Shown: positions 12,655 to 55,210 of the stretch, piece after piece
Position numbering within the stretch: position 1 is the first letter of the stretch
How the letters are laid out: every line of letters starts with the position of its first letter
Origin: Achromobacter sp. Root83
GTDB lineage: Bacteria; Pseudomonadota; Gammaproteobacteria; Burkholderiales; Burkholderiaceae_B
Assembly (NCBI RefSeq): GCF_001428845.1
Contig: NZ_LMIU01000001.1
Location: 248,984-312,983, forward strand
Direction: 5' to 3'
DNA length: 64,000 nucleotides
Notes under the pieces: generated by a model
The model's database searches: none
Seen by the model: only the letters and a program-made list of their open reading frames with translations
What the model was told of the DNA's origin: nothing
Program-made: the position numbers and the translations under genes

Positions 12655-13613
12655 GCGATTTCGTTAATGGCTTCTGGGGATATTTCATCTCGATCGTCGC
12701 CGTGGGCGGCGTGGTCTGGTGCGTCTGGCTGCTGTACACGCAGCGCCGCTGGCTCAGCTCCAAGCCCGCCAACGGCCAGGTCGAGGACACGGGCCACGTC
12801 TGGGACGGCGACCTGACCGAGCTCAACAACCCGGTCCCCACCTGGTGGACCTGGATGTACCTGCTGGCATGCGCGTTCGCGCTGGGCTATCTGTTCCTGA
12901 TGCCCGGACTGGGCCAGTACAAGGGTCAGCTCGGCTACAGCAGCACCGAAGAGGTCGCGCAGCAGCAGGCGAAGATGGCCGAGGCTGTCCGTCCCATCTA
13001 CGCGCGCTTCGAGACCATGACGGTGCCGCAGATCGCCCAGGATCCGGGCGCCCGCGAAATCGGCCAGCGCCTGTTCCTGAACACCTGCGCGCAGTGCCAC
13101 GGTTCGGACGCGAAGGGCGCGCCCAGCTTCCCCAACCTGGCGGACGGAGACTGGCTGCACGGCGGCTCGCCCGAGTCCATCATGCAGACCATCAAGGAAG
13201 GCCGCCACGGCGTGATGCCTCCCTGGAAGGACTCGATCGATCCCAAGATGGCGGGCGACATCGCGCAATACGTGCGTTCGCTGTCCGGCCTGACGGCGGA
13301 TCCGGTGCGCGTGTTCCGGGGCAAGCGCGACTACGGCAACTTCTGCGTCGCCTGTCACGGTGTCGACGGCAAGGGCAACCAGCTCGTGGGCGCGCCGAAC
13401 CTCACGGACGACGTCTGGCTGTACGGCAGTTCGGAAGCGACCATCGTCAAGACGATCCTGGACGGCCGCGACAACCGCATGCCGGCGCACGAGCACATCC
13501 TGAGTCCCGAGCAGATCAAGATCCTGACTGCCTGGGTCTGGGGGCTGTCCAACAAGCCGGATGCGCAGAAGCAGGCGGCGGCAGGCGCCGCCGAGCCGGC
13601 CACGGTGAAGTAG
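12651..13613 (+). CDS. ccoP: cbb3-type cytochrome c oxidase subunit III (dihaem)
   Basis: This 320-residue subunit has the N-terminal cytoplasmic/membrane hairpin (FVNGFWGYFISIVAVGG, WWTWMYLLACAFALGYL) and two haem c domains with CAQCH at about residue 147 and CVACH at about residue 232. It accepts electrons from soluble cytochrome c and hands them to CcoO. The tail is Ala-rich. Confidence 0.97.
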   Translation: MSDFVNGFWGYFISIVAVGGVVWCVWLLYTQRRWLSSKPANGQVEDTGHVWDGDLTELNNPVPTWWTWMYLLACAFALGYLFLMPGLGQYKGQLGYSSTEEVAQQQAKMAEAVRPIYARFETMTVPQIAQDPGAREIGQRLFLNTCAQCHGSDAKGAPSFPNLADGDWLHGGSPESIMQTIKEGRHGVMPPWKDSIDPKMAGDIAQYVRSLSGLTADPVRVFRGKRDYGNFCVACHGVDGKGNQLVGAPNLTDDVWLYGSSEATIVKTILDGRDNRMPAHEHILSPEQIKILTAWVWGLSNKPDAQKQAAAGAAEPATVK

Positions 13614-40672: not shown

Positions 40673-41102
40673 CGCGCCGCCACGCCACCCATTCACCCTC
40701 GCCGTCGCAATGGTGGGGGCCGCGCCTGGCCGTAGCCAGCCCTGCCCGCAACACCTGCATGTCCAACCCCGGCAGATTGCGCAACAGGGCCGGGGGCAGG
40801 CGGTCAAGGTCCAGCTTCGATTGGTCGAAGTCCAGCAGCAGCAGTCCGCCGCCATCGCTCGGCACCCGGAAGAACCACAGGCTTTCCATGTAATGGCCGA
40901 ACCAGGGGTCCGGGAAGATGGCCTCCGTGAACAGGAAGCCGAACTCATGGATGTCGCTCCAGGGCCAGAATTCCCGAAAACCCATGGCGCGCGACAACGC
41001 GTTGGTCCGCGTAAAGCCGGCGTCGTCGAAGGACACGATCTGCTGCAAGGGGTCGGGCGGCGCGGGCGCCCGCGCAACCCAGCGTTTGATGTATGACCAC
41101 AT
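40581..41102 (-). CDS. Uncharacterised protein, possibly extended at its C-terminus
   Basis: This 173-residue protein starts MWSYIKRWVARAPAPPDPLQ. Its core (IVSFDDAGFTRTNALSRAMG, WSDIHEFGFLFTEAIFPDPW, FFRVPSDGGGLLLLDFD) has a protein-like hydrophobic pattern. After EWVAWRR the remaining 35 residues are Pro/Arg-rich and look unselected, so the ancestral stop may have been lost. It lies 10 bp downstream of the DUF218 gene, on the same strand. I cannot name a family. Confidence 0.6.
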   Translation of the reverse strand: MWSYIKRWVARAPAPPDPLQQIVSFDDAGFTRTNALSRAMGFREFWPWSDIHEFGFLFTEAIFPDPWFGHYMESLWFFRVPSDGGGLLLLDFDQSKLDLDRLPPALLRNLPGLDMQVLRAGLATARRGPHHCDGEGEWVAWRRASGLPADRGRARSPDHGTWTPTPAPRTPDA

Positions 41103-41112
41103 GGCGTTTGTT

Positions 41113-41982
41113 TCAGTAGGGTGGAAGCTCGAAAGGCCGCGCGCTGAATGCCCCATCCCCGAGCCGCGCTGCATTGGGCCCGGCGTACGCCGGATCGCGG
41201 GAATCCATGTCCAGGTTCACTGGCCGGCCTGGCCGTGGCGGCGATGCTCGGAAAACAGGCGGCGCGGCAAGCGGCATATTCTGCCTGACGAGCGCAAGGC
41301 GTTCCTTGATGGCGATGTCCGTCAATAAAAAATTCCAGGCGACATGATAGGGGCTGCTGGCCGCGCTCAAATAGTCCGTCGAGACGGGCGTGGCGCGGAT
41401 GCCCAGCCGTGAAAACCGCAACATCGCCCTGCGTGAAAATACCGCGGGCGAAACCAGATATACCTTGTCGGCCTGCCAGTCATTGATCGCCAGATGCGCG
41501 CCATCGTCGATTTCCGCTTCGGCTGAAAACAGATCGGTATCGGGAATCATGTCGCCGTCGTCGACGCCCAGCGCGCTCAGCCTTTTGCGGTATGCCTCGA
41601 AATCCGGGGTTTTTATATAGCGCGACGTGGTGCCCGCAACAAAAATCCTGCAAGCCGCCGATTGCTCCATGCAGTGGCGGTACAGCTGGGCGGCGGCAAT
41701 CACGCTCTCTGAAATGAAAATATCGGATTCCGCGCGCACGCCCGACGCCGGCAGCCCGGGCCCGGGGTCCAGCAGCACAATCGCATTGACCGATCCAAAG
41801 GCGGCATCAGAGCCATGGGCAGGCTGCAGATCATCCAACAGCCACGACGCCAGCCTGCCGTCCCCGACCAGCGCACCCGCGGCAATCGCGGATGCATAAA
41901 AGAGCGAGCTGATCCGCCGGCGCTTCAGTATGTTGAACAGCATGCCCAGCAGCATCAGCAGAAAAACAGATCCTGCAGCCAT
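41113..41982 (-). CDS. YdcF/DUF218-family membrane protein
   Basis: This 289-residue protein has two N-terminal membrane helices (SVFLLMLLGMLFNIL and LFYASAIAAGALVG), then a DUF218-like domain (AIVLLDPGPGLPASGVRAES, IFVAGTTSRYIKTPDFEAYR, DDGDMIPDTDL, KVYLVSPAVFSRRAMLRFSR). Relatives include SanA and ElyC, which act in envelope integrity. It is divergent from the S9-like gene, so the weak regulatory dyad at 42123 could serve either. Confidence 0.78.
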   Translation of the reverse strand: MAAGSVFLLMLLGMLFNILKRRRISSLFYASAIAAGALVGDGRLASWLLDDLQPAHGSDAAFGSVNAIVLLDPGPGLPASGVRAESDIFISESVIAAAQLYRHCMEQSAACRIFVAGTTSRYIKTPDFEAYRKRLSALGVDDGDMIPDTDLFSAEAEIDDGAHLAINDWQADKVYLVSPAVFSRRAMLRFSRLGIRATPVSTDYLSAASSPYHVAWNFLLTDIAIKERLALVRQNMPLAAPPVFRASPPRPGRPVNLDMDSRDPAYAGPNAARLGDGAFSARPFELPPY

Positions 41983-42122
41983 GCTTGATTCCTCGTGCCG
42001 CCTACACTGGGTTAATGGAAAATCAGGCCTTCATGTTAATGCGCGGTGGCCGTGCAAGATATGGGTATAAATGCTCAATCTGGCCCGGATGGTCCGCCGG
42101 ACGTGCGCGCAATGGCAAAAAT

Positions 42123-42136
42123 AAGTAATTCATCTC
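42123..42136. promoter_or_regulatory. Degenerate copy of the GAGTA-N4-TACTC dyad
   Basis: AAGTA-ATTC-ATCTC followed by T differs at few positions from the 50548 copy and lies 60 bp before the S9-like gene. The two half-sites are not symmetric, and the -10 at the expected distance is poor, so this is a weak member of the set. Confidence 0.35.
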
Positions 42137-42196
42137 TGGATAAACGCGTCCGCGTTTAGCAAGCTGGGTGGAGTCCGGCAGAAAACAGGCAGAATC

Positions 42197-44146
42197 GTGA
42201 AATTCAAAAGGCGCAGAAAAGACTGGCTGGGTAAAGCCGATGTCGTGGTACTGATATGCTTGCTCTTCGCCATATATTGGGCGCTTTCCACCAATACCCG
42301 GCCGCCCCTCTATCCGGTCGAGGCCTTCTTTGCGCTGTCGCCCCGAACGGATTTCCAGATTTCCCGGGACGGAAAACACCTGGGCTATATCGAGAGCGGC
42401 GTGGACACCGACGGAACGCCGTTGCGGGGGCTGTTCGTGCAGTCGGTCATTGCCGGAACGCCTGATGCGGCGGCCAGGCGAATATCGGACGAGCGCGACG
42501 GGGCCATCAAGGGCTATGCCTGGAAAGATTCCTCGACGTTATTGGTATACAAGGAGATGCGCGAAAACCGGCTTGTGCGCATCATCGCCATCGACGCCGG
42601 TACCGGGCGTTCGACAAGCCTGGCCATGCCCCAAGACGGTCCGGTGCGCCTTGAAGACATCCTGCTGCACGACCCGCATCGGGTCTTGATCAGCCGCGAT
42701 GGCGCCGATGGCGTCAGCACGCTGATGCAAGTGGACGTCCGCGACGGACAACAGACGGAAATCGCGGCGCTGCCTGAAAATGTGATCGCCTGGATCGAAG
42801 GCGATACAGGCCTTGCGCGCACCGCCATATCCAGAATCGGTTCCGACCTCTGGATCTACGCGCAGCAAGACGCAGAATCCGGGTTGCGCGCGGTATTGAC
42901 CGTGGATTTTCGGACGGTATTTCAGCCAATCCGGTACGCGCCCGGCAGCGGCTCGCTTTATGTGCTGTCGAACCGAAACCGGGACAAGGTCGCATTGGTT
43001 AAATGGAACCCCGGCTCGCCCGACGCGGAGGAACTGTTATTCGCTTCCGAGTCGTTCGACGTGACCGGGATGGATTATTCGGAAGGCCGCGCCCAGGTGG
43101 ACAGCGCGTCGTATCGGGATTCCAGGCTCGCCTACCATTTCTTCGCGGCGAAATCCGAACTGCTACACCGGAAACTGAGGCAAAGGCTGGACGACCGCGA
43201 ATTGGTGTTGTCGGGGTCAAATGCCGACGAAACGCTTTATATCGTGCGGACATCCGGTGACCGCGACCCGGGCGGCGAATACCTGTATTACGCCCCGACG
43301 GACACCTTGACCAAACTGACGCTGGACACGGAATTGATTCCGCCGGCAGCCCTGGCCGGCATGCAACCGGTAGCGTATGCGGCGCGCGACGGCAGGGATA
43401 TCGAAGGCTATTTGACGCTGCCCGTCGGCCTGGAGGCAAAAAGCCTTCCGTGCATCGTGATGCCTCACCGGAACCCCTGGGGCCGGGACCGCTGGGAATA
43501 CAACCCGATCGTGCAACTTTTCGCCAACCGGGGCTACTGCGTCATGCAAATGAACTACCGCGGTTCCGCCGGGTACGGCCGCGCATTCCGGGAGGCGGGA
43601 TTCGGCCAGTGGGGGCTGGAAATGCAGGACGACATTACCGACGCGGCGAACTGGCTGATCGCCACGGGGGTGGCGGACGCCAACAGAATTGGCATCTTCG
43701 GCATGAACTACGGCGGCTATGCGGCGATCGCGGGCGCGGCGTTTACACCGGGCATGTATGGCGCGGCGGTAAGCTACGGCGGAATGGCCAATCTGTTCAC
43801 GACGTATGCCACGGTGCCCCACGAGTGGGACGGAATCCTGCCCATGATCGGGGAAGTGCTGGGCGACCCCATCAGGGATAAGGGCAGGCTCGTGGCCACG
43901 TCGCCGATATTCCATCTGGACAGGATCAGAACGCCATTGTTCATCGCGCACGGGCAATCCGATGCGCGCGTGCCGCGAGCGGAGATCGCCAGCATGGTCA
44001 GATTGCTGCGCCAGAGCGGCGCGCAGGTGAAGTACATGACCAAGCCCGGCGACCACGGCGGCTTCTCAAGCGCGTCGGATAAATTGCAGTTCTATCATTC
44101 GATGGTCCAGTTCTTCGACAGCAAACTGGCATTTGTTCAAGAATGA
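42197..44146 (+). CDS. S9 (prolyl oligopeptidase)-like protein with nucleophile Ser replaced by Asn
   Basis: This 649-residue protein starts at a GTG, has one N-terminal membrane helix (residues 14-30), a beta-propeller-like region to about residue 390, and a C-terminal alpha/beta hydrolase domain. In S9 peptidases the elbow reads GxSYGGY; here it is IGIFGMNYGGYAA with Asn504 (AAC at 43706-43708) in place of Ser. The partner Asp589 (GQSDARVP) and His620 (KPGDHGGF) remain. It is probably a non-catalytic binding or scaffold protein, anchored in the inner membrane with the domains in the periplasm. Confidence 0.85.
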   Translation: MKFKRRRKDWLGKADVVVLICLLFAIYWALSTNTRPPLYPVEAFFALSPRTDFQISRDGKHLGYIESGVDTDGTPLRGLFVQSVIAGTPDAAARRISDERDGAIKGYAWKDSSTLLVYKEMRENRLVRIIAIDAGTGRSTSLAMPQDGPVRLEDILLHDPHRVLISRDGADGVSTLMQVDVRDGQQTEIAALPENVIAWIEGDTGLARTAISRIGSDLWIYAQQDAESGLRAVLTVDFRTVFQPIRYAPGSGSLYVLSNRNRDKVALVKWNPGSPDAEELLFASESFDVTGMDYSEGRAQVDSASYRDSRLAYHFFAAKSELLHRKLRQRLDDRELVLSGSNADETLYIVRTSGDRDPGGEYLYYAPTDTLTKLTLDTELIPPAALAGMQPVAYAARDGRDIEGYLTLPVGLEAKSLPCIVMPHRNPWGRDRWEYNPIVQLFANRGYCVMQMNYRGSAGYGRAFREAGFGQWGLEMQDDITDAANWLIATGVADANRIGIFGMNYGGYAAIAGAAFTPGMYGAAVSYGGMANLFTTYATVPHEWDGILPMIGEVLGDPIRDKGRLVATSPIFHLDRIRTPLFIAHGQSDARVPRAEIASMVRLLRQSGAQVKYMTKPGDHGGFSSASDKLQFYHSMVQFFDSKLAFVQE

Positions 44147-44181
44147 GCGTGCGCGTATCGAAAGGTAAATTGGACTGACTT

Positions 44182-44224
44182 GAGTACAAATACTCTGGCT
44201 CCGGTTTTGTTTTGAATCAAAAAT
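44182..44224 (+). promoter_or_regulatory. GAGTA-N4-TACTC operator and promoter of the response regulator gene
   Basis: The perfect dyad GAGTA-CAAA-TACTC lies at 44182-44195. TGGCTC directly follows at the -35 position and AAAAAT at 44219-44224 sits where a -10 should be. The implied start is near 44231, so the dyad is centred at about -42.5, the class II position used by LuxR-type activators. This suggests autoregulation. Confidence 0.7.
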
Positions 44225-44294
44225 TTGCCAAAAGAAACCTGGGTGCGCATGCGTCCACGTTGAGATCGTGCCTCTATTCTTGAAACCAGAACAA

Positions 44295-45029
44295 ATGAGC
44301 AATCCCCAGCAGTTGTTTCGTCTTCCTTTTGACGAGTTGGCAATTCCGGCCCCGATAGGCCCCGTACCGCAAAACAAGGCCGCCACATTCCGCCGGGCCA
44401 ATTATCTTCGAGCCGCCGCCAAGGTGTATGTCGTGGACGACGACGACCTTGTGGTCTGGATAATAAAGCAGCAGCTCAGGGACCTGCGCGTCGAGATCGT
44501 AGCCTATTCGTCAGCGGAGGCATTCATGGCGCAATATTCGCCCGCCGAATGCGAATGCCTGATCCTTGATTTGAGAATGCCGGCATTGGATGGGCTGAGC
44601 CTGCAGCGCTACCTTCTGGAAAAGGGCGTGGCGCCACCCATCATCTTCATCACGGCGAATCCCGACTTCGACGATGCAGTCGAGGCCATGAAGCATGGCG
44701 CGTTCGATTTTCTATCCAAGCCGCTTCAAGCCGACCGATTATGCGACGTGGTGCATGCCGCCCTGGAGACAAGCCGGAAAATGCATGTGAAGCGGCTTCA
44801 GGAAGAAGAAGAAAACGCAAGAAAGGCGCTACTTACATCGCGCGAACTTTCCATCGTCGAAGGAGTGATCGCCGGGTATTCCAGTAAAGAGATCGCAGAG
44901 CGGCTGCATCTGTCCGTGCGCACCGTCGAAAATCACAAGGCGCACATCTATTCCAAACTGGGTATCCATTCGTCCCTAGGCCTGGCCCGCCTGTTCATCG
45001 GGCTGGTGAATCCGGGGCACGGCCAGTAG
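44295..45029 (+). CDS. FixJ/LuxR-type response regulator
   Basis: This 244-residue regulator has an unusual 40-residue N-terminal extension, then a receiver domain (VYVVDDDDL, phospho-acceptor Asp92 in LILDLRMPALDG, Thr/Ala in FITAN, Lys142 in FLSKPL) and a C-terminal GerE HTH (residues 180-237: LTSRELSIVEGVIAGYSSKE, LHLSVRTVENHKAHIYSKLG). A GTG at 44268 would add 9 residues. It is the only LuxR-type protein in the 42-54 kb region, so it is the best candidate to bind the GAGTA-N4-TACTC dyads. The hybrid kinase at 51103 is the likely phosphodonor. Confidence 0.93.
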   Translation: MSNPQQLFRLPFDELAIPAPIGPVPQNKAATFRRANYLRAAAKVYVVDDDDLVVWIIKQQLRDLRVEIVAYSSAEAFMAQYSPAECECLILDLRMPALDGLSLQRYLLEKGVAPPIIFITANPDFDDAVEAMKHGAFDFLSKPLQADRLCDVVHAALETSRKMHVKRLQEEEENARKALLTSRELSIVEGVIAGYSSKEIAERLHLSVRTVENHKAHIYSKLGIHSSLGLARLFIGLVNPGHGQ

Positions 45030-45111
45030 CGGCTGGCGTATTGGGGAAGGGTGCGCCTGCCTGCGGCTTGGACGCCGTCCTTCGGCGCGAGCGGGCTATT
45101 TCAAGAAAAAT

Positions 45112-45155
45112 GAGTAATTTTGCTCTGTGGGTCCCCGTCCAAGTATTGAAATAAT
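45112..45155 (+). promoter_or_regulatory. GAGTA-N4-TACTC-type operator and promoter of the Ig-like protein gene
   Basis: GAGTA-ATTT-TGCTC lies at 45112-45125 (one mismatch in the right arm). TGTGGG follows as -35 and AATAAT at 45150-45155 matches five of six -10 bases. The implied start near 45162 puts the dyad centre at about -43.5. Downstream are 80 bp of leader before the ATG. Confidence 0.65.
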
Positions 45156-45240
45156 GCGACGCATCATGTTGCCAGGTGCTGCCATCAGCCATTTCGACAG
45201 CATTTGACGCATGGAATTCTCAATGACCAAGGATCACGCT

Positions 45241-46341
45241 ATGGGAAATCGAATTATTCATTCTGCTGCTACGTTTGGGGTGGCGCTAGGGGTATTGGCG
45301 CTGGCGCTGGCGCCGGCCCATGTCGCGCACGCGGCGGAAGACAGGGGACCCGTCGGGAAAATCACGGAACGGGTCGTGCCTGCCCGGAACGGGCCGTCCA
45401 CCGCGCCGGGCGCGGCGCCCAGCAATGGCGCGGCGACGCCAGCCCGGGCCCCGGAATCCAATCAGCCCGCGGATCGCGGCTTGTCCATTACCTCGGGCGC
45501 CGCGCTGAATTCCCAACTGGTGAAGGTACGCACGTCGGGCGGCACCGGATCCTTGTCTTTCCGGCTGCTGGACCCCAGCGGCAAGCCCGCCGAATTGCCG
45601 CCCGGCCTGGTATTCGGCTCGGATGGCTCGCTGTCGGGCGAGGCGCCTTCGGTGTCCACCCCCAAGACGATCACGTACCTGATCCAGGTGCAGGACAGCG
45701 GCGGCGGCAAGGCGAGCAGGACGGTGCGGCTGACCATCAATCCCCCCTTGAGCGTGCAGGGCGGCGCCATCCAGGCTACCGCCGGCGGCAAGATCAAGAG
45801 CCCCGTGAAATTCCTTAATGTGTCGGGCGGCACCGGCAAGTACACGGTCGCGTATTCGAACGCCGAAGGCGGAGCCATGCGGATGCCCTCCGGCCTGATA
45901 CTGGACGGCGCGGGCAATGTCAGCGGGTCGGTGCCCGCGTCGGCGGAGAAGATGGCGGGACTCACCGCCACGATCACCGACGAAGGCGGGGCGCGTGTGT
46001 CGATGCCGGTCGAGTTCAACCTGGCTCCCGCGCTGGAAATCGCGACGAACCCCGTGGAACTGACCGCCGGCGCGGCCATTCCGGCTCCGATCCCGGTGGT
46101 CTCGTCCATGGGCGGAAGCGGCGCTGTCCGCTATACCTTGCTCGACAAGGACGGATCCACGCCGGCCCGGCTACCGGAGGGATTGCGGTTCGATTCGACC
46201 GTGGGCGCGCTTACCGGCCTGGTGCCCTCGACCCCGCAGGAAGGCAGGTACGTCGTGCTGGCGCAGGACGCCGGGGGCGGCGAGGCCAACGCAAGATTCG
46301 AATGGAAGGTCAACCCGCAGCTGCAAATCTCCCTCGAATAA
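45241..46341 (+). CDS. Secreted protein with three Ig-like (He_PIG-type) repeats
   Basis: This 366-residue protein has a signal peptide (MGNRIIHSAATFGVALGVLA, cleavage near AHAAE), a Pro/Ala-rich linker to about residue 78, and three repeats of about 90 residues, starting near LSITSG, LSVQGG and LEIATN. Each has a GGTG or GGSG turn, a PxGLxxDxxxGxLxG-like turn (LPPGLVFGSDGSLSG, MPSGLILDGAGNVSG, LPEGLRFDSTVGALTG) and a final beta strand. Such putative-Ig domains occur in surface adhesins. There is no membrane anchor or autotransporter domain, so it is periplasmic or released. AAGGA before 45241 sets the start. Confidence 0.85.
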   Translation: MGNRIIHSAATFGVALGVLALALAPAHVAHAAEDRGPVGKITERVVPARNGPSTAPGAAPSNGAATPARAPESNQPADRGLSITSGAALNSQLVKVRTSGGTGSLSFRLLDPSGKPAELPPGLVFGSDGSLSGEAPSVSTPKTITYLIQVQDSGGGKASRTVRLTINPPLSVQGGAIQATAGGKIKSPVKFLNVSGGTGKYTVAYSNAEGGAMRMPSGLILDGAGNVSGSVPASAEKMAGLTATITDEGGARVSMPVEFNLAPALEIATNPVELTAGAAIPAPIPVVSSMGGSGAVRYTLLDKDGSTPARLPEGLRFDSTVGALTGLVPSTPQEGRYVVLAQDAGGGEANARFEWKVNPQLQISLE

Positions 46342-46414
46342 TCTGACGAAGCGCAGGCCGGCGCGCATCTGACAGCAGCGTGCGTGCCGGCGCGTGGCGC
46401 GGGAGGTGAAGAAA

Positions 46415-46819
46415 ATGGGGAAGCTACAGGCGCTTGCATTCGATCCCGGCGGACAGCAGGCCGAGCCCGGCCGCATCCAGTCGAATGTGGCGCCGATCTC
46501 TGCAATCCGCAGCTTGCGTGGCAGAAGCGGGCTGGTGATTCCGGTACGCAACGTGCGAGTCAGCCTGTCGGAGACTTTTGTAACCCGGTATCAGGCAAGG
46601 CGCGTATTGAATACGGTGCCGCCGGGCACCCTGCGCGTGTGTTTTGATTTCTCTGGCATCGGCAGCATAGGCCCTGCGTTCGCGGACGAAATATTCTTTA
46701 TTTACGCGCGGCAAAACGCAAGCACGGAAATCGCCTGGGAAGGCGCCGAAATGCATGTGAAAAACCACATCCTGTGGGCGGTATCGCGCGCGAAGCAATA
46801 CCAGCCGGCGCCGGTCTGA
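46415..46819 (+). CDS. DUF4325 (STAS-like) protein
   Basis: This 134-residue protein has the DUF4325 pattern: SETFVTRYQARRVLNTVPPG, LRVCFDFSGIGSIGPAFADE and IFFIY. Stand-alone or fused DUF4325 domains are found with histidine-kinase-like ATPases and resemble anti-sigma-factor antagonists. GGAGGT 8 bp upstream fixes the ATG at 46415. It follows the Ig-like gene by 73 bp with no dyad of its own, so it is probably in the same transcript. Its partner is not evident; the hybrid kinase is a possibility. Confidence 0.82.
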   Translation: MGKLQALAFDPGGQQAEPGRIQSNVAPISAIRSLRGRSGLVIPVRNVRVSLSETFVTRYQARRVLNTVPPGTLRVCFDFSGIGSIGPAFADEIFFIYARQNASTEIAWEGAEMHVKNHILWAVSRAKQYQPAPV

Positions 46820-46923
46820 CATCGCATAACACCACACCCGAATAACGCCTCGTCGCTTTAGTGCGACGAGGCGTAGCCGTATTCGGATTGGAAACGAAAC
46901 GGCTGCGGTGAATCAGCAATATG

Positions 46924-46966
46924 GAGTAATCGTACTCTCGGCGCGGTGGCGGCGGGTGGGGAAAAT
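46924..46966 (+). promoter_or_regulatory. GAGTA-N4-TACTC operator and promoter of the autotransporter gene
   Basis: The perfect dyad GAGTA-ATCG-TACTC lies at 46924-46937. GAAAAT at 46961-46966 has exactly the same spacing to the dyad as the -10 elements at 44219 and 50585. The -35 is weak (TCGGCG), as expected for an activator-dependent promoter. The implied start near 46973 leaves a leader of about 120 nt. Confidence 0.7.
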
Positions 46967-47092
46967 TGCGCCTTGAAACGATCAGGGTTCAGTTTTTTTA
47001 AACCAAAGATATTACAAAGCCCAGGCTTTTCGGTGCGGTGTTTTACGCCGCGACCGCTGCTTTGTGTGTCTTCCAATATGCCGAGAGAAATA

Positions 47093-50000
47093 ATGAGTAT
47101 TGATTCCCGCCATTTTTCGTCGTGGGCGGCCAGCCGCAGGAATATCTTCAGGGCCAGGCACTCGGGACTTAAGTTGTGCTGCAGCCTGGCAATACTGTCC
47201 GCCGGCGTGCTGGCTTCGACGGAAGCGATGGGCGTGATTATCGGGGAGGCGGGAACCGGGGGCGTGGGCGGAGCGCGGAACGGCGGAGATGGGGGCGATG
47301 GCGGAGACGGCGGCGCCGCGCTGACCCTGACGGATTCGTACACGACCATAGACGACGTGGAAGGTGCGCCTGGCGGAGGTGGAGGCGGAGGAGGCGGCGG
47401 CGGGGTCGGCGGAGTTAGTTTCAATGGCGGCGCGGGCGGCAACGGAGGTGGCGGCGGGCACGGCATCGTTTTGTCCGGCGATGGCATCGTCTTGAAAAAC
47501 GATGGCTGGTCGATCAGCGGAGGAAAGGGCGGCGGCGGCGGTGGCGGCGGCGGTGGAACATACAGCGACGAGGTTGAGAGCGACGGAGGGGCCGGGGGGA
47601 ATGGGGGCGGCGGCGCAGGGGGAGGCGGCGGCGGCGGCGGTGGAGGCGGGGCCGACATCAACGAATCATACTTTGGAGGCCTTCCTGGAACCGGCTACGG
47701 CGGTGACGGCGGCAATGGCGGGGAAGATGGGCAGGCCGCCGGCGGAGACGACAACGTACACGGTGTTTATGCGGGCGGCGGCGGCGGCGGTGGCGGCACC
47801 TACACGCACGGCGGGGAAGGAGGCGGGTCCGTGGAGACGACCGGTATCGTCGGTCTCGGCTCGCCGGGCGGTCGCGCGGGGGGTGCCTCTGGAGTCGACG
47901 GTCTTGCCGGCGCAAGCGCACAGATCGTGGGCGGAGGATGGTCTGGGGGAGGCGGGGGCGGCGGTGCGGCTGGCGGAGCCGGCGGGGCCGGGGCCAATGG
48001 CCGCCGGGTTGAGGGGGGCCCTGCCGGCGGCCCCGGTGGCAGCAGCGGCTATGGGATCTACGTACTGAGCGCCAACACCCTCATCATCAACGCCGGACAA
48101 GTCCACATGGGCCCGGTCAACCAGAACACGGCGATCAAGTATGCCGCCAGCGCCAGCAATTCCACCCTGGCGCTCCAGGAGGGCAGCCAGATATTCGGCA
48201 TCGTGGACGCGACCGAATCCACCGGTGTGAACACCTTCGTCCTGGACGGCGGATCGGCGCTGGCCTTCGACGCCAGCAAAATCGGAGGCGGCAGCGCGCC
48301 AGACCAGTATCTGGGCTTCACGGCATTTGAAAAGACGTCCGCGGGAACCTGGTCGCTGACCGGGACGCCCGCGCAAGCGCTTACGCCCTGGACGCTTTCC
48401 GGCGGCTGGCTGGCGATCCAGCACGACGCGAGCCTGGGAGATTCCGCTGGCGCCCTCGCGTTCAATGGCGGCGGGCTGCAACTTGACGCCAATATCGATT
48501 CGCAGCGGGAAATGCATCTGGCGGGCGATGGCACGATCCAAACGCCGGAGGGAACCGTTTCCGTGTGGCGTGGCCAGATCAGCGGCGCGGGCACCCTGAC
48601 CAAGACGGCGCCCGGCGTGCTGATCATCGGGGGCGGCAACGTTTCGTCGGGCGCCACCGTGGTCGACCAGGGCACCTTGCAGGTGGGCGCGGGCGGGACC
48701 GCCGGCTCGCTTGGCACGGGTGCGGTGTTGAACAACGCCGTCCTGGCGTTCGACCGCGCCGACACGCTCAGGGTATCCAACGCGATATCGGGGACCGGCG
48801 AGCTGTGGCAGGCCGGTTCGGGGACGACGGTCTTGTCCGGGCCGCTTGCCTACACCGGGATTACGCGGATCAACAACGGCACGCTGGTCATCGACGGCAC
48901 GACGCTGGGCGAGCCTGAACAAGGCCGCGCCCGGGTGGTCGGCGCGGGCAATGCGCAACTCGGGCTGAGCGGCGGCGCGGCGCTGAACGGCTGGGTGGAC
49001 GGCCCCAGCGTCGAGATCGATTCGGCCAGCCAATGGAACGTGCTGACGGATCCGGCGAACCCGGCTCAGGGGAACAACCTCAGCACGGCGTACACCATCA
49101 AGCTGGCCGGGCGCATCCAGTTCGCCGAACCGGCGGTCTGGACCAACGACGCCATCGAACGCACGCTCACGGCAGACAATCTGGTGGGAGAAGGCGGCGA
49201 GATTCAATTGCACATGATTCCGTTTGCCTCGGGAACCAGCGATTACCTGACGCTGAACCAGGGGGCGACTGGCCTCAGCAATATCGCGCTCAACGCTCGC
49301 GGAAAACTGGGTGATCCCCTGCCGGGCAATGGTTTCCTGGCCGTGAAAGCCGGGGCCAGCACGGACAATGCGTTTCAGCGTAGTCCAGGCGCGCCGCTGC
49401 GCGGCGGCGCGTTCAACTACACGCTCATGCATGGCGCGAAAGACGGCGCTGCGGCGTTCGCGAACAATTGGTACATCCGCAGCGAAATCCGCCCCGAGGT
49501 CTCCATCTACTCACAGCTTGGAAGCCAGTCCGTCCGGCAATCGGAGCTTGCGGTCGGAACGCTCAACGAGCGCATGGGCGCGACGGAGACCCTGTCTGGA
49601 AAGGTATATCCGTATGCCTGGGCAAGAACGCTGGGCGCGCTGGAACGCCGCGATGGCGCCGCGAGGGGCATCATGCAATCGCACGTGGCCGCGGACACCC
49701 GGCTGGGCGGCTTTCAGATGGGCACCGACCTGCTGGTGGTGAACAAGGGCATCAGCCGCCGAAGCGCCGGCGTGTTCGGGACCGTGATGGCTTCCCGCAA
49801 CGACGTGGACCACTATCGCGAGTCAAGCCATTCCACGGTACGCGCGGGCCGCAGCGACCAGACCACTTACGGCCTTGGCGGCTATTACACCCTGCTGGAC
49901 GGCACCGGCGGCTACGCCGATTTCGTGACGCACCTGAACCGATATGGCGTAAAGACCCAATCCGGGGGCGCCGATGGCGTATCGATGCGGACTTCGGGAT

Positions 50001-50476
50001 GGGGCGGCGCGTTGTCCGCGGAGGCCGGGAAGGCCTTCCTCATGGGCAGTGGAGAGGGCAATTTCAGGATAGAGCCCCAAGCGCAACTCATGTACCAGCA
50101 CGTCAAGCTGCGCGATGGCGACGACGGCGTAAGCACCGTGTCGCTTCCCGCCGTGAACAGCCTGCATTCCCGGGTGAGCCTCAAGGTATCGAAGTCCTGG
50201 GGCGAGGGGGCCGCGCCGGTCAGCAACGGCTGGCTGATGCTCAGCTACCTCCATACCTTGGGAACGTCGTCCAGCACGTATCCCACGGCGACGCAAGGAA
50301 CGGTCTCGTTCGACAACGAGCTGGACGGTTCCCGGCTGGGTCTGAAGGCGGGCTATGACCGCAGCGTTGGCAAGAACACTTACGTCAATCTTCAGGGGAG
50401 TCTGGAGCATGGCCTGGGCGGCGATTCGACAATGCGGAGCGCGGGCGCGATCGTGGGGATAAAGCACCTCTTCTGA
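47093..50476 (+). CDS. Autotransporter (type Va) with glycine-rich passenger
   Basis: This protein of about 1127 residues has an extended signal peptide (residues 1-47), a glycine-rich region of about 250 residues (GGNGGGGAGGGGGGGGGG-type tracts separated by short polar segments), a beta-helix-like passenger with two autotransporter-associated repeats (SGAGTLTKTAPGVLIIGGGN near 497; ISGTGELWQAGSGTTVLSGP near 565) and a C-terminal 12-strand beta-barrel (about 860-1127) ending in HLF. It should insert in the outer membrane and display the passenger. I choose ATG 47093; ATG 47078 and GTG 46946 are alternatives. Its promoter carries the shared dyad. Confidence 0.92.
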   Translation: MSIDSRHFSSWAASRRNIFRARHSGLKLCCSLAILSAGVLASTEAMGVIIGEAGTGGVGGARNGGDGGDGGDGGAALTLTDSYTTIDDVEGAPGGGGGGGGGGGVGGVSFNGGAGGNGGGGGHGIVLSGDGIVLKNDGWSISGGKGGGGGGGGGGTYSDEVESDGGAGGNGGGGAGGGGGGGGGGGADINESYFGGLPGTGYGGDGGNGGEDGQAAGGDDNVHGVYAGGGGGGGGTYTHGGEGGGSVETTGIVGLGSPGGRAGGASGVDGLAGASAQIVGGGWSGGGGGGGAAGGAGGAGANGRRVEGGPAGGPGGSSGYGIYVLSANTLIINAGQVHMGPVNQNTAIKYAASASNSTLALQEGSQIFGIVDATESTGVNTFVLDGGSALAFDASKIGGGSAPDQYLGFTAFEKTSAGTWSLTGTPAQALTPWTLSGGWLAIQHDASLGDSAGALAFNGGGLQLDANIDSQREMHLAGDGTIQTPEGTVSVWRGQISGAGTLTKTAPGVLIIGGGNVSSGATVVDQGTLQVGAGGTAGSLGTGAVLNNAVLAFDRADTLRVSNAISGTGELWQAGSGTTVLSGPLAYTGITRINNGTLVIDGTTLGEPEQGRARVVGAGNAQLGLSGGAALNGWVDGPSVEIDSASQWNVLTDPANPAQGNNLSTAYTIKLAGRIQFAEPAVWTNDAIERTLTADNLVGEGGEIQLHMIPFASGTSDYLTLNQGATGLSNIALNARGKLGDPLPGNGFLAVKAGASTDNAFQRSPGAPLRGGAFNYTLMHGAKDGAAAFANNWYIRSEIRPEVSIYSQLGSQSVRQSELAVGTLNERMGATETLSGKVYPYAWARTLGALERRDGAARGIMQSHVAADTRLGGFQMGTDLLVVNKGISRRSAGVFGTVMASRNDVDHYRESSHSTVRAGRSDQTTYGLGGYYTLLDGTGGYADFVTHLNRYGVKTQSGGADGVSMRTSGWGGALSAEAGKAFLMGSGEGNFRIEPQAQLMYQHVKLRDGDDGVSTVSLPAVNSLHSRVSLKVSKSWGEGAAPVSNGWLMLSYLHTLGTSSSTYPTATQGTVSFDNELDGSRLGLKAGYDRSVGKNTYVNLQGSLEHGLGGDSTMRSAGAIVGIKHLF
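47360..48045 (+). repeat. Glycine-rich GGC/GGA codon repeats within the autotransporter
   Basis: Runs of GGCGGC, GGCGGA and GGAGGC triplets encode tracts of up to 11 glycines in a row (for example near residues 225-260 of the open frame at 46946). The tracts are imperfect at DNA level and interrupted by segments such as YSDEVESDGGAG and YAGG. Slipped-strand changes in multiples of three would alter length without breaking the frame. Confidence 0.8.
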
Positions 50477-50547
50477 TCCGGCTTTTCCACGCGTGCGTAT
50501 CGCACTTTCGAAAGGGGATTCGCTCCCCTTTCCCGCCTTGTCCTTTT

Positions 50548-50590
50548 GAGTAATTCGACTCTTGTTGCCCGGCCGCCAGGCGTCTTTAAT
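50548..50590 (+). promoter_or_regulatory. GAGTA-N4-TACTC-type operator and promoter of the HTH-kinase genes
   Basis: GAGTA-ATTC-GACTC at 50548-50561 (one arm mismatch) directly abuts TTGTTG (50562-50567), then 17 bp later TTTAAT (50585-50590). This is the best-formed promoter of the set. The start would be near 50597, placing the dyad centre at -42.5 and giving a 23-nt leader. Confidence 0.72.
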
Positions 50591-50619
50591 AGCGCTGTTC
50601 AACTGAAGCCTTGGTGGTC

Positions 50620-50976
50620 ATGCCCGACACGGAAAACGGCTATTTTGACGATATTCTGTCGTCGGGTCTGTCTGCCTATGCCGGGGTAAAAAGTTCGACG
50701 GCAACGTCGATCCCGGATTCCATATCGCATCTCGTCCGCGAAGAGCGGATGAGCACCTTGCGCGCGTGGCGTATCCATCTGGAAATATCCGTCCGGGAGT
50801 TGTCATCGAGCTCCGGAATTTCCGTGCCGGCGATTGAACTGCTGGACCGCGGCGAACTGTCTCTGTGCCTGTGGATGGCGATACGGATAGCCGCGGCCCT
50901 GCAGGTGGTGAGCGTGCAGAGCATCCTGGCTACTGAATGTCTTGTGTCGTGCCGTACCTATAACGACAAGGAATAG
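50620..50976 (+). CDS. Small XRE-like helix-turn-helix protein
   Basis: This 118-residue protein has a helix-turn-helix at about residues 48-104: TLRAWRIHLEISVRELSSSS, SVPAIELLDRGELSLCLWMA, IRIAAALQVVSVQSIL. The first 45 residues look disordered. It begins 30 bp after the shared promoter -10 and precedes the hybrid kinase by 126 bp without an obvious second promoter, so the two are probably co-transcribed. The role, perhaps a modulator of the same regulon, is inference. Confidence 0.75.
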   Translation: MPDTENGYFDDILSSGLSAYAGVKSSTATSIPDSISHLVREERMSTLRAWRIHLEISVRELSSSSGISVPAIELLDRGELSLCLWMAIRIAAALQVVSVQSILATECLVSCRTYNDKE

Positions 50977-51102
50977 CCGTGCTCGCCATTTGCCACGGAG
51001 GTGTGCTCTTATCGCAGCAGAAAATTCGGGCATGCGCGGGCCGGATCCGCACGGCGTTGCACGAATACGGGATCGAATCCACGAGGCAAGAGATCGGTAG
51101 AT

Positions 51103-53790
51103 ATGGGCGCGACGATGTCGGAGTACCGCCGGAAAATATTCCTCATACTGTTTTTTTTGTTGGCGCTGGTGATTGGCGGTTCGGTTGCTTCCATCGCTTT
51201 CTTGAAGGAAATGGCGGAGCAGGAAATATTGGTTCAGTTGTTGGCGCGGCTGCGGCTCATGCAGCCTGCCGGCGACCGGGCTGACAGCCAGGATCTGGCC
51301 AGCATGGCTTACCTGCTTGTCGGCGCCAGTCTTGGGAACACGCCAAGCCATTCCGTGGGGCCGTCCGGCGAAGCGCGGCAAGGGTCAACGGACGCGGCGC
51401 TCGGCGGGGCGAGCCAGGCCCCTGCAACGGAGTTGATGAACTACGTCAATCCACTCGGCGTGCGGGTCTATGCGGTCAGGGGCAACAGCGCCGCGGGCGG
51501 CGTGACACTCTATGCCGAACAAGAGGCAGGCCAGGTATTGGCCACCTTTCACGCGGCAAGACGGATCGTGCTGGGATTCGCGTTGTTGTTTGCCGTTGTG
51601 GCCGCCACATTCGCGGCGTTTCATATCCGGTGGCAACGCCTGTCCAGGCTGAGCGAACGCGGACGGAAGGCGTTTGGCGACTGTACGCCGGCGGCGTGGT
51701 CGATGCCGGATCCGCGCGGCTGCCGCACCCATGGCAATGCGCCGGTCGGCGAATCCAGACTGCTGGGTGAAACGCTGGAACTGCTGTGGGAACAGGGAAC
51801 ACACGCGTTGCCCGCATCCGCCGCAAAGGCCAGGGCGGAAGCCGCCGAGAAGCTGGATATCCTGTCGATGATCGCGCACGAGATCCAGACGCCGATCAGC
51901 GCCATTGCGGGCATCGCCTTTCTGATGAAACAGGCGCGTGCCGAGGAGATGCCGGGGCACGTGTCCCGCTTGATCGAGACAAGCCATTACCTGTCCGCGG
52001 TGGTGCGCAATGCGCTGGATCTTTCCAGGCTCGAATCGGGCAGGATGGATATACAGCTCAGAAAGTTCTCGCTGCGTGGCCTTGTCCAGCACGTCTTCGA
52101 GCTGGTGTGGGACAGCGCCATGGAGAATGGCGTGAACCTGTTCACGAACTTGCCGCCGGATGTTCCGGATCTGCTGGTGGGCGACGACGTGCGCATCAAG
52201 CAGATTCTGCTGAATTACATCCAGAACGCGATCAGGCATGGCGGGCCGGGCCTGGTCGTGCTCGATATCGCGGCGGACGACGATAACCCCTGCGTAATGC
52301 GCAACTTCACCTTCGTGGTGCGGGACCGCGGGCCAGGCATCGAACGGGAGGAACTGGACAGGCTGTTCAAGCCTTTGCCGTGGATCGCCGGAAGATCCCG
52401 CGCACAGGGCAACGGGCTGGGCCTGAACATCACCAGGCGTATCGCGGAATTGATCGGCGGTCAGACATGGATCGACAGCCGCCCCGGCCAGGGCGCGGCC
52501 TGCATCGCGAAACTGCCCTTGGCGGTGGACGTGTCGCAGGATGCCGGATTCAGCGTGTCGCAATTCGCGGGCAAGCGCATCTGGGTGGTGGATCCATCGG
52601 GTGAATTGACGGCGGCCATTCACGCGGGGCTTGCCGCGCGCGGCGCGCGGGTGGATGAGGCCGGCGGCCAGCGGCTGCTGTGCCCCGGCGCGATTGCAAA
52701 CGGTTCGGGTGATTCGGGCGAGGCGGCGCCTGACTACGTCATTGTCGACTGGCGGTGCTTTTCGCAAGCGCTGATGGACCGCTGCGATGCGATGTTCAAG
52801 GACAATCGCGCGCGCTTTATTGTGCTGGGTCCCCCCTTGGGCTCCTGGACCCCGGATACGTCCAGGCCGGATAGGGTGCATGTGCGGTTCAAGCCCACGC
52901 TGCTGTCCGAAACCGGCGCAAGACCGTTCAACCCCAGTGCTACGCTCAAGGGAAATATGTCAGGCCAGGATTGCTGCATCGACAAGAATTGGCTGGCCCG
53001 CTCTGTGGTGCTGCTGGTCGAAGACGACGATATCGTCCGCTCCGTTTTTCGGGAAATCCTGGTCCTGGCGGGCGCGGAGGTTCTTGTCGCGGGCGACGGA
53101 TTCGAGGCATTGACCATCTTGGGGCATTCCCACATCGATATCGTTCTGATGGACCTGCAAATGCCGGGCCTGAGCGGTTTTGAAACCGCGCGGAAAATCC
53201 GGGCCATGCCAGGGATGCGCGAGCTTCCGATCATTGTGATCACCGCGAACCCGACAGAGATGGATCGCGCCACGGCCTCATGGTATGGCGTGACGTGTTC
53301 CCTGACCAAGCCGGCAAACCCTTCCCAGCTGCTGGAACTGATGCGCGGCTTGCTTGAGCGGCGTGAAGGCGGAGGATTCGGGTTGGCGGATCGCGAGATG
53401 CTGGCGGACAGTCCGGCGAGCGGCGCGGATGCATGCCGCGCGATATCCGCCGGCATCGCGGCGCTGGATGAAATCAGGATCGACAACGCGCTGGCGCGGC
53501 TTGGCGGCCGCCACGAGATATTCGTGAATATCGTTCGGCGTGTGCTGGAGCGCGCGGACTCCGCGAAGTCGCCCCTTGCTCCCTTGGTCGAGTCCGAGGA
53601 CCTGGGTTCGGCCACCGCGGCGTTTCACAAACTGGTTTCGGAGCTTGGCATCATCGGCGCGGAACCCTTGCAGGCGTGGGCCGCGGAACTGGAATCGGCT
53701 GCCCGCCGGTCCATGCTTGAACGCAGCGCTGTCGACGCGTTTGTCAGGCGCTATCGAAAATTGATCGCGGACCTGCGCCGCGTCGCGTAA
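51103..53790 (+). CDS. Hybrid sensor histidine kinase with two receiver-like domains and HPt (BvgS-like layout)
   Basis: This 895-residue kinase has TM1 (12-31), a periplasmic region of about 120 residues, TM2 (154-174), HisKA with His259 in SMIAHEIQTPISAI, and HATPase with the N box YIQNAIRHG and the G boxes RDRGPGIE and GNGLGLNITRRIAELIGG. Next is a degenerate receiver (KRIWVVDPSG, YVIVDW, VRFKPTLL), then a full receiver with Asp684 in VLMDLQMPGLSG and Lys in CSLTKPANP, and a C-terminal HPt with His842 in AFHKLVSELGIIGA. There is no PAS or HAMP domain. A His-Asp-His relay to the regulator at 44295 is the natural reading. I start at ATG 51103; an ATG 12 bp further is possible. Confidence 0.93.
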   Translation: MGATMSEYRRKIFLILFFLLALVIGGSVASIAFLKEMAEQEILVQLLARLRLMQPAGDRADSQDLASMAYLLVGASLGNTPSHSVGPSGEARQGSTDAALGGASQAPATELMNYVNPLGVRVYAVRGNSAAGGVTLYAEQEAGQVLATFHAARRIVLGFALLFAVVAATFAAFHIRWQRLSRLSERGRKAFGDCTPAAWSMPDPRGCRTHGNAPVGESRLLGETLELLWEQGTHALPASAAKARAEAAEKLDILSMIAHEIQTPISAIAGIAFLMKQARAEEMPGHVSRLIETSHYLSAVVRNALDLSRLESGRMDIQLRKFSLRGLVQHVFELVWDSAMENGVNLFTNLPPDVPDLLVGDDVRIKQILLNYIQNAIRHGGPGLVVLDIAADDDNPCVMRNFTFVVRDRGPGIEREELDRLFKPLPWIAGRSRAQGNGLGLNITRRIAELIGGQTWIDSRPGQGAACIAKLPLAVDVSQDAGFSVSQFAGKRIWVVDPSGELTAAIHAGLAARGARVDEAGGQRLLCPGAIANGSGDSGEAAPDYVIVDWRCFSQALMDRCDAMFKDNRARFIVLGPPLGSWTPDTSRPDRVHVRFKPTLLSETGARPFNPSATLKGNMSGQDCCIDKNWLARSVVLLVEDDDIVRSVFREILVLAGAEVLVAGDGFEALTILGHSHIDIVLMDLQMPGLSGFETARKIRAMPGMRELPIIVITANPTEMDRATASWYGVTCSLTKPANPSQLLELMRGLLERREGGGFGLADREMLADSPASGADACRAISAGIAALDEIRIDNALARLGGRHEIFVNIVRRVLERADSAKSPLAPLVESEDLGSATAAFHKLVSELGIIGAEPLQAWAAELESAARRSMLERSAVDAFVRRYRKLIADLRRVA

Positions 53791-53837
53791 TCCGTTCGTC
53801 CACACGAAGACCCGCCGCCGCAAAAATGTTACAAGCC

Positions 53838-53851
53838 TTGATTCACATCAA
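53838..53851. promoter_or_regulatory. Perfect FNR/ANR box upstream of ppk2
   Basis: TTGAT-TCAC-ATCAA is an exact FNR consensus match with centre at 53844.5, 106 bp upstream of the ppk2 ATG. A class II start would fall near 53886, with TAGGGT at 53874-53879 as a weak -10. It resembles the two boxes at the cco locus. Confidence 0.75.
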
Positions 53852-53956
53852 TTCCCCGCGGCGCGGGGCAAGTTAGGGTTGCGCTTTTGCCTGACGGGTC
53901 GCCGGCGACTGGCCGGCCGGCGCGGACTGGCGCCCAGCGCAGCAAGGATAGGATCA

Positions 53957-55210
53957 ATGACCGACAAGACATCGAAGATTTCGGAACAAGAAATTGCCGC
54001 TGCGCCGAAAAAGCGCGCTAGCGGTTCGCAGGGGGCCGCCGCCAAGCGCACCGCCCGCGCGCGCCGCGCCCCGGCCGGTGATGCCGCCAAGTCCGCTGCG
54101 GGGATTTCCGCGGAAGCCGCCGCGGGTGCCGCCGCCAAGCCTGTCGCGGCAGCGGCGGCCGCGCCCGCCATCGAGCCCGCCATCGAACCCGCCGTCGAGC
54201 CCGCCGCCGAAATCCGCAAGCGCGTGGCCGCTCGCCAGGATGCGGCCCGGCAAGAGACCGCCGCGGTGCTGGCCGATATCGCCCGGCGCTATACCGTCGG
54301 CGCGCCCGGCGAGGCGCATGATGCCTTGCGTTCCGTCATCGATGAGCTTTCTGCGGACGATGCGCGCGCGGTGCATCGCGCGCTGCTGGAAGCCAACACG
54401 CAGGCGCCGGCCTCCCGCCGCAATCCCGACGATGAGCTGGCCGTGGATTGGCGCGAGGGCATCTACCCGTACCGCCATCGCATGCTGCGCCGCAATTACG
54501 AAAAGCAGAAGTACCAGCTGCAGGTCGAACTGCTGAAGCTGCAGGCCTGGGTCAAGGCCACGGGCCAGCGCGTCGTGATCCTGTTCGAAGGGCGTGACGC
54601 GGCAGGCAAGGGCGGCACCATCAAGCGCATGATGGAACACCTGAATCCGCGCGGCGCGCGCGTGGTCGCCCTGGAAAAGCCATCCGACACGGAAAAGGGC
54701 CAATGGTATTTCCAGCGCTACGTGCAGCACCTGCCCACGGCCGGCGAGATCGTCATGTTCGACCGGTCCTGGTACAACCGCGCCGGCGTCGAGCGGGTGA
54801 TGGGTTTTTGCTCGCAAGACGATTACCTGGCGTTCCTGCGGCAGACGCCCGACTTCGAACGTCACCTGGTCACCAGCGGCATCATCCTGATCAAGCTCTG
54901 GTTCTCGGTGAGCCAGGAAGAGCAGCGCCGCCGCTTCATGCAGCGCAAGGTGCATCCGCTCAAGCAATGGAAGCTGAGCCCGGTGGACCTGGCGTCGCTG
55001 GACAAGTGGGACGACTACACGCGCGCCAAGGAAGCCATGTTCGCGCACACGGACACCGCGGACGCGCCGTGGATCGTCGTGAAATCCGACTGCAAGAAGC
55101 GCGCCCGCCTGAACGCCATGCGCTATGTGCTGAGCCGCATGCCGTACGAAGGCAAGAGTGACGATCCGCAGATGGCGCTGGATTCCCTGATCGTGGGACG
55201 CGCCCTGTAG
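53957..55210 (+). CDS. ppk2: Polyphosphate kinase 2 (class I)
   Basis: This 417-residue protein has an Ala/Pro/Glu-rich N-terminal extension of about 100 residues and one PPK2 domain: Walker A LFEGRDAAGKGGTIKRMMEH near residue 210, ALEKPSDTEKGQWYFQRYV, and Walker B with lid IVMFDRSWYNRAGVERVMGF near 267. Class I enzymes phosphorylate ADP or GDP using polyphosphate. A GGATAGGATCA ribosome-binding site supports the ATG at 53957. The FNR box suggests expression at low oxygen. Confidence 0.93.
   Translation: MTDKTSKISEQEIAAAPKKRASGSQGAAAKRTARARRAPAGDAAKSAAGISAEAAAGAAAKPVAAAAAAPAIEPAIEPAVEPAAEIRKRVAARQDAARQETAAVLADIARRYTVGAPGEAHDALRSVIDELSADDARAVHRALLEANTQAPASRRNPDDELAVDWREGIYPYRHRMLRRNYEKQKYQLQVELLKLQAWVKATGQRVVILFEGRDAAGKGGTIKRMMEHLNPRGARVVALEKPSDTEKGQWYFQRYVQHLPTAGEIVMFDRSWYNRAGVERVMGFCSQDDYLAFLRQTPDFERHLVTSGIILIKLWFSVSQEEQRRRFMQRKVHPLKQWKLSPVDLASLDKWDDYTRAKEAMFAHTDTADAPWIVVKSDCKKRARLNAMRYVLSRMPYEGKSDDPQMALDSLIVGRAL

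Follow-up and report, generated by a model that had tools for sequence, protein, structure and literature searches.

A candidate, mostly private two-component regulon of surface and secreted proteins in a horizontally variable block of Achromobacter sp. Root83

The window analysed here comprises 64,000 nt of the Achromobacter sp. Root83 genome (contig NZ_LMIU01000001.1). One 11.7-kb block within it, at 42123-53790, carries genes for an S9-peptidase-like protein, a response regulator, an Ig-repeat protein, a DUF4325 protein, an autotransporter, a small HTH-like protein and a hybrid kinase, all on the + strand (Table 1). The 6.2-Mb genome of this strain is denoted G000, and the genomes compared with it carry other G numbers; the gene starts from the regulator to the kinase were revised against the orthologues in G018. 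A sequence-only reading of this DNA had named six of the genes, from regulator to kinase, and all six are present on the + strand in the order that it gave. The first gene of the block, for the S9-like protein, was missing from its list, though the block start that it gave, 42123, is that of the dyad before this gene.

Table 1. Features of the block and its flanks (positions within the window)
Feature	Position	Strand	Evidence or remark
Core gene	40581-~41100	-	left flank
Inserted block	41101..53878		between the two core genes
Candidate operator dyad AAGTAATTCATCTCT	42123..42137	+	before S9-like gene; weakest copy
Membrane-anchored S9-peptidase-like protein	42197-44146	+	Pfam PF00326, E 8e-38
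Candidate operator dyad GAGTACAAATACTCT	44182..44196	+	before regulator gene
Response regulator, 244 aa, FixJ/StyR type, receiver and LuxR-type HTH	44295-45029 (ATG)	+	Pfam PF00072, PF00196
Candidate operator dyad GAGTAATTTTGCTCT	45112..45126	+	before Ig-like gene (Ig-DUF4325 unit)
Secreted/periplasmic protein, signal peptide and three He_PIG (Ig-like) domains	~45223-46341	+	Pfam PF05345, 3 stretches
DUF4325 (STAS-like) protein	46415-46819	+	Pfam PF14213, E 2.5e-6; orthologue in G018
Candidate operator dyad GAGTAATCGTACTCT	46924..46938	+	before autotransporter gene
Autotransporter, glycine-rich passenger, beta-helix repeats, pertactin-like region, C-terminal barrel	~47093-50476 (ATG)	+	Pertactin PF03212
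Candidate operator dyad GAGTAATTCGACTCT	50548..50562	+	before HTH gene and kinase gene
Small HTH-like protein, 118 aa	~50620-50976	+	weak HTH_25 match, E 0.097
Hybrid sensor kinase, 895 aa	51103-53790 (ATG)	+	Pfam; hydropathy and alignment with G018 orthologue
Core gene, polyphosphate-kinase-2-like	53879-55210	+	right flank

The products other than the two signalling proteins point mainly to the cell envelope. The S9-like protein is anchored in the membrane at its N-terminus; when it was aligned with acyl-aminoacyl peptidases of solved structure, the catalytic Ser was seen to be replaced by Asn (GMNYGG), implying that the protein is probably a pseudo-enzyme. In the G018 orthologue (L079:6526-8379) all three triad positions are lost, the frame is still open and the dyad is kept as AAGTAATTCTCCTCT. 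The protein is therefore best read, from these alignments, as a binding or sensing protein and not as a peptidase. The Ig protein has counterparts of 70-81% identity in five further species of the genus, and the DUF4325 gene probably shares its transcription unit. As expected for a type V autotransporter, repeats and a pertactin region are found in the window copy; its barrel itself is unmatched, and homologues at 64-67% identity match the barrel model TIGR01414. The glycine-rich passenger with its beta-helix repeats suggests a surface adhesin. For the small HTH-like protein, the G018 orthologue is 61% identical and the AlphaFold model has a mean pLDDT of 45, too low for use in a structure search.

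Regarding the regulator, the phospho-acceptor Asp92 and the switch Thr are present in both the window copy and G018. Among the NCBIfam models FixJ is the best match, at 147 bits against a cut-off of 255, compared with 64 bits for NarL; comparison with solved structures gave 1e-28 for StyR (1yio) and FixJ (5xso) and 2e-11 for NarL. These scores place the regulator within the wider FixJ/StyR subfamily, not as a FixJ equivalog. The kinase is ordered as a transmembrane segment, a periplasmic loop of ~120 aa, a second transmembrane segment, HisKA (His259), HATPase, receiver and HPt (His842), and its Pfam scan found neither Venus-flytrap nor PAS domains. Its best family matches, RcsC, TorS and BarA, are all far below the equivalog cut-offs, and the AlphaFold model of the sensor region has a mean pLDDT of 49, likewise too low for a structure search. 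Visual inspection suggests that the segment between HATPase and receiver could be a degenerate receiver; a search with this segment matched no solved structure, so that this assignment stays a guess. The domain content proposed earlier for both proteins is thus confirmed by Pfam, including the missing Venus-flytrap and PAS domains that set the kinase apart from BvgS orthologues, and the residue numbers Asp92 and His842 are correct with the starts in Table 1.

It can be observed that a dyad, GAGTA-N4-TACTCT, precedes five transcription units in the block, every copy in one orientation; written generally for the five units it is (G/A)AGTA-N4-(T)nCTCT. The dyad had been described earlier as common to the promoters of kinase and regulator, which is real, and it extends to five units rather than two. 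The kinase gene is probably the second gene of the HTH unit, because its dyad stands before the HTH gene. The pattern GAGTAN5RCTCT, which four of the five dyads fit, has four exact matches in the 6.2-Mb genome, all in the block, and one in its reversed control; this own-genome count is partly circular, since the motif was first read from this window, and the independent evidence for the motif is its recurrence in other genomes only. The looser AGTAN6CTCT is matched 20 times across the 6.2-Mb genome, including five times in the block, compared with 28 times for its reversed control. As background, reversed-pattern controls gave 0-11 matches, and four genomes without the regulator gave 0-2 each. 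With a site before nearly every gene group and almost none elsewhere, the cluster looks like a private switch for its own surface proteins.

The position of the dyad relative to the promoter is nearly constant. Of 22 sites, 19 have a -10-like hexamer NANAAT beginning 23 or 24 nt past the dyad; both S9 sites and one autotransporter site do not. For example, AATAAT begins 24 nt after the dyad of the Ig-like gene, and TTTAAT follows that of the HTH/kinase unit. Taking this hexamer as the -10 box would place the dyad at approximately -49 to -35, with its centre near -42. Such a position is the usual place of a class II activator contacting polymerase over a missing -35 box, and the geometry therefore fits an activator better than a repressor.

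Of the 43 genomes of the genus, the same six carry the regulator, the Ig protein and the autotransporter family, and the kinase is found in two of these, G000 and G018. In G018 the block orthologues stand in the same order, minus the autotransporter, with the dyad before the S9, regulator, Ig and HTH genes; GAGTAN5RCTCT has three exact matches in this genome, all upstream of orthologous genes. The other four species (G020, G030, G035 and G029) carry the regulator (50-54% identity) and the Ig protein (70-72%), the kinase is absent, and the genes for the autotransporter homologues (61-67%) are not linked to the regulator gene. Here, a dyad of the type GAGTA-N4-TRCTCT stands before all nine autotransporter genes with a promoter in the data. 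Three tandem autotransporter genes, each with its own operator copy, were seen in G020:C15 and G035:C13 (L158, L159). The Ig promoters of these four species bear the variant dyad RGGTAGTTYTRCTCT, and no clear dyad was found upstream of their regulator gene. Five other dyad matches occur in the four genomes; the four that were read all lie inside unrelated ORFs, at background rate, and the fifth (G029:C320) is identical in sequence to the match at G030:3695781. In the kinase-less species (L081-L084), genes for a KaiC-like ATPase and a HisKA-HATPase-REC protein follow the regulator-Ig pair, and these neighbours might replace the kinase. Prophage-tail-like genes lie on the other side of the pair in L082 and L083.

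Further copies of the dyad belong to a second autotransporter family (46-52% identical): TGAGTGTTATTRCTCA-like dyads precede its genes in G000 (contig C6), in G018, where there are two, and in G035. The paralogue in G000, near C6 176,700-176,960 (L154), is unlinked to the block and has the variant dyad TGAGTGTTATTGCTCA upstream, indicating that the own genome holds at least one probable unlinked target. Outside the genus, a Sulfuricella MAG encodes a 47%-identical regulator flanked by two hybrid kinase genes, one of them also REC-HPt, and GAGTATTTCCACTCT stands before both kinases (L010:8270-8283 and 13399-13412). No such dyad was found near the other distant regulators, from Janthinobacterium, Oxalobacteraceae, Sterolibacterium and 15 at ~40% identity. 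Approximately 400 genomes of the order gave regulators of only ~40% identity, and no relative of the Ig or DUF4325 protein outside the own genome in that sample.

The receiver of the regulator varies in parallel with the kinase. In the four kinase-less species the switch Thr is changed to Lys and the M-P-x-x-D-G loop is missing; the two genomes that have the kinase (G000 and G018) encode a canonical receiver. This pattern fits a cognate pair in which phosphorylation has been relaxed where the kinase is missing, as a correlation that depends on a single split in the tree.

The block has been inserted cleanly between two core genes. The flanking genes are direct neighbours in 13 of 13 examined relatives without the block, and the block sits exactly between them in G000 and G018. 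GC3 of the block genes is 0.68-0.82, lower than the 0.80-0.94 of the flanking genes. A gene for a DUF218 protein (41113-41982, - strand) also lies within the insert and is missing from the G018 copy. In a tree of the PPK2 gene, the five testable carriers together with G005 form one clade (support 0.998), in which G000 groups with G018, and G020 with G030 and G035; the co-occurrence counts are consequently not independent events. Ancestral gain followed by relocation or loss, and repeated acquisition, are both possible origins. PADLOC found no defence system, no feature of the cluster itself suggested that it stems from a phage or acts as RNA, and literature searches on this cluster returned nothing relevant.

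Taken as a whole, the block is probably (at about 0.72) a horizontally variable, mostly private two-component regulon in which the kinase acts through the regulator on the dyad promoters. This reading draws on the genes, the operator and its genome-wide specificity, the fixed distance to a -10-like hexamer and the conservation at unlinked homologues, all taken from sequence. The membrane-bound hybrid kinase would pass phosphate through its own receiver and HPt to the regulator encoded 6 kb away. The phosphorylated FixJ/StyR-type regulator would then bind GAGTA-N4-TACTC as a dimer, centred near -42, and bring RNA polymerase to weak promoters that lack a -35 box; the dyad would serve activation rather than repression. 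The regulator would thereby switch on its own gene and the HTH-kinase unit, giving positive feedback, together with the Ig-like secreted protein, the DUF4325 protein and the autotransporter, and probably also the membrane pseudo-peptidase and the unlinked autotransporter paralogue. The products may serve surface adhesion or community growth. Earlier, the module had been proposed to be self-contained, which agrees well with the gene cluster and less well with the paralogue on another contig; control of the linked surface and secreted genes by regulator and kinase, also proposed there, is favoured on grounds of sequence. Regulator, kinase and targets had been expected to keep together, and this was found in part: the regulator occurs without this kinase in four genomes, and it stays with the Ig protein, the autotransporter and the operator.

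Other arrangements of the same parts should be considered. The dyad could be the operator of the small HTH-like protein, which would repress or activate the cluster while the regulator would serve different targets. Short palindromes are common binding sites of XRE-type proteins, and the HTH gene lies within the cluster in both kinase-bearing species and is itself preceded by the dyad. However, four species with no HTH homologue seen up to 20 kb from the regulator keep the dyad at their Ig and autotransporter promoters, and the dyad also occurs near the Sulfuricella regulator; among DNA-binding proteins, only the regulator has been shown to be common to all dyad-bearing cases, and it is presumably the protein that binds the dyad. 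Since the -42 position also fits an activator better than a repressor, an operator of the HTH-like protein appears improbable. Phosphorylation raises a separate question, as kinase and regulator might not be partners at all, the regulator acting phosphorylation-free or with another kinase and the present kinase being a chance neighbour. The four species that keep regulator and dyads without the kinase, beside a KaiC-like ATPase and a HisKA-HATPase-REC protein, are in favour of this. Nevertheless, the loss of the switch Thr and the DG loop exactly in those species, the operator common to the regulator gene and the kinase unit in two species, and the HPt domain needed for a relay make independence of the two proteins unlikely, and phosphotransfer from this kinase to the regulator remains the expected route.

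The reading given least weight is that of a genuine BvgAS system, an orthologue of the Bordetella one, and we consider it hardly credible. It is prompted by the HK-REC-HPt output module with a LuxR-HTH regulator, which is the same as in BvgAS (BvgS layout per PMC5829827), but the kinase lacks Venus-flytrap and PAS domains and is confined to 2 of 43 genomes of the genus, and the best matches of the regulator are FixJ and StyR, well ahead of NarL-type proteins. The earlier label "BvgAS-like" consequently describes only the relay layout of the kinase, and is no more than an analogy for the system as a whole.

For the private two-component regulon preferred here, the comparison of lineages has wider meaning. 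Most two-component regulons are spread over the genome and are hard to delimit by sequence; with an operator so specific, the full target list can be read directly. The sister lineage represents a natural experiment, with the same operator and targets, no kinase and an altered receiver, so that the manner in which a response regulator survives the loss of its kinase becomes directly testable. Tentatively, and at somewhat less than even odds, operator and surface targets may persist for long periods in a mobile private regulon to which the kinase is optional: once it is lost, the receiver would decay to a phosphorylation-independent form still driving the autotransporter and Ig promoters, and autotransporters would multiply in tandem, each with an operator. 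The dyad also gives access to the regulation of an autotransporter family about which little is known and of a conserved pseudo-peptidase.

Comparison with known systems defines the character of the block more clearly. The defining parts of BvgS are Venus-flytrap domains, a PAS domain in most members, HK, receiver and HPt (PMC5829827); the last three are found in the present kinase and the first two are not. BvgAS and the block resemble each other in the hybrid kinase with a receiver and HPt phosphorelay, the LuxR-type HTH regulator and the control, predicted in the case of the block, of autotransporters and secreted proteins (PMC5829827). The block differs in its ~120-aa periplasmic loop instead of tandem Venus-flytrap domains, its FixJ/StyR-type regulator, its different operator and its few predicted targets, nearly all in the same cluster. 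BvgA itself belongs to the NarL-type subfamily, to which comparison with NarL models and structures did not assign the block regulator. FixJ and StyR share the receiver and LuxR HTH and include the closest solved structures (1yio, 5xso), whereas the partner kinase of the block has an HPt domain and a periplasmic loop and the predicted targets are surface proteins. RcsC, TorS and BarA share the HK-REC(-HPt) layout with the kinase, whose sensor region is unrelated to theirs at the sequence level. The nearest functional parallel known to us appears to be PprAB of Pseudomonas aeruginosa, encoded inside the flp-rcp-tad locus, the several transcription units of which it activates, with an unlinked adhesin likewise under its control (PMC3510237). 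The block similarly would place two-component genes within the surface-protein locus that they control, with an unlinked autotransporter as a further probable target. The PprAB targets are instead the Flp pilus, CupE and BapA, and the likeness drawn here is one of function.
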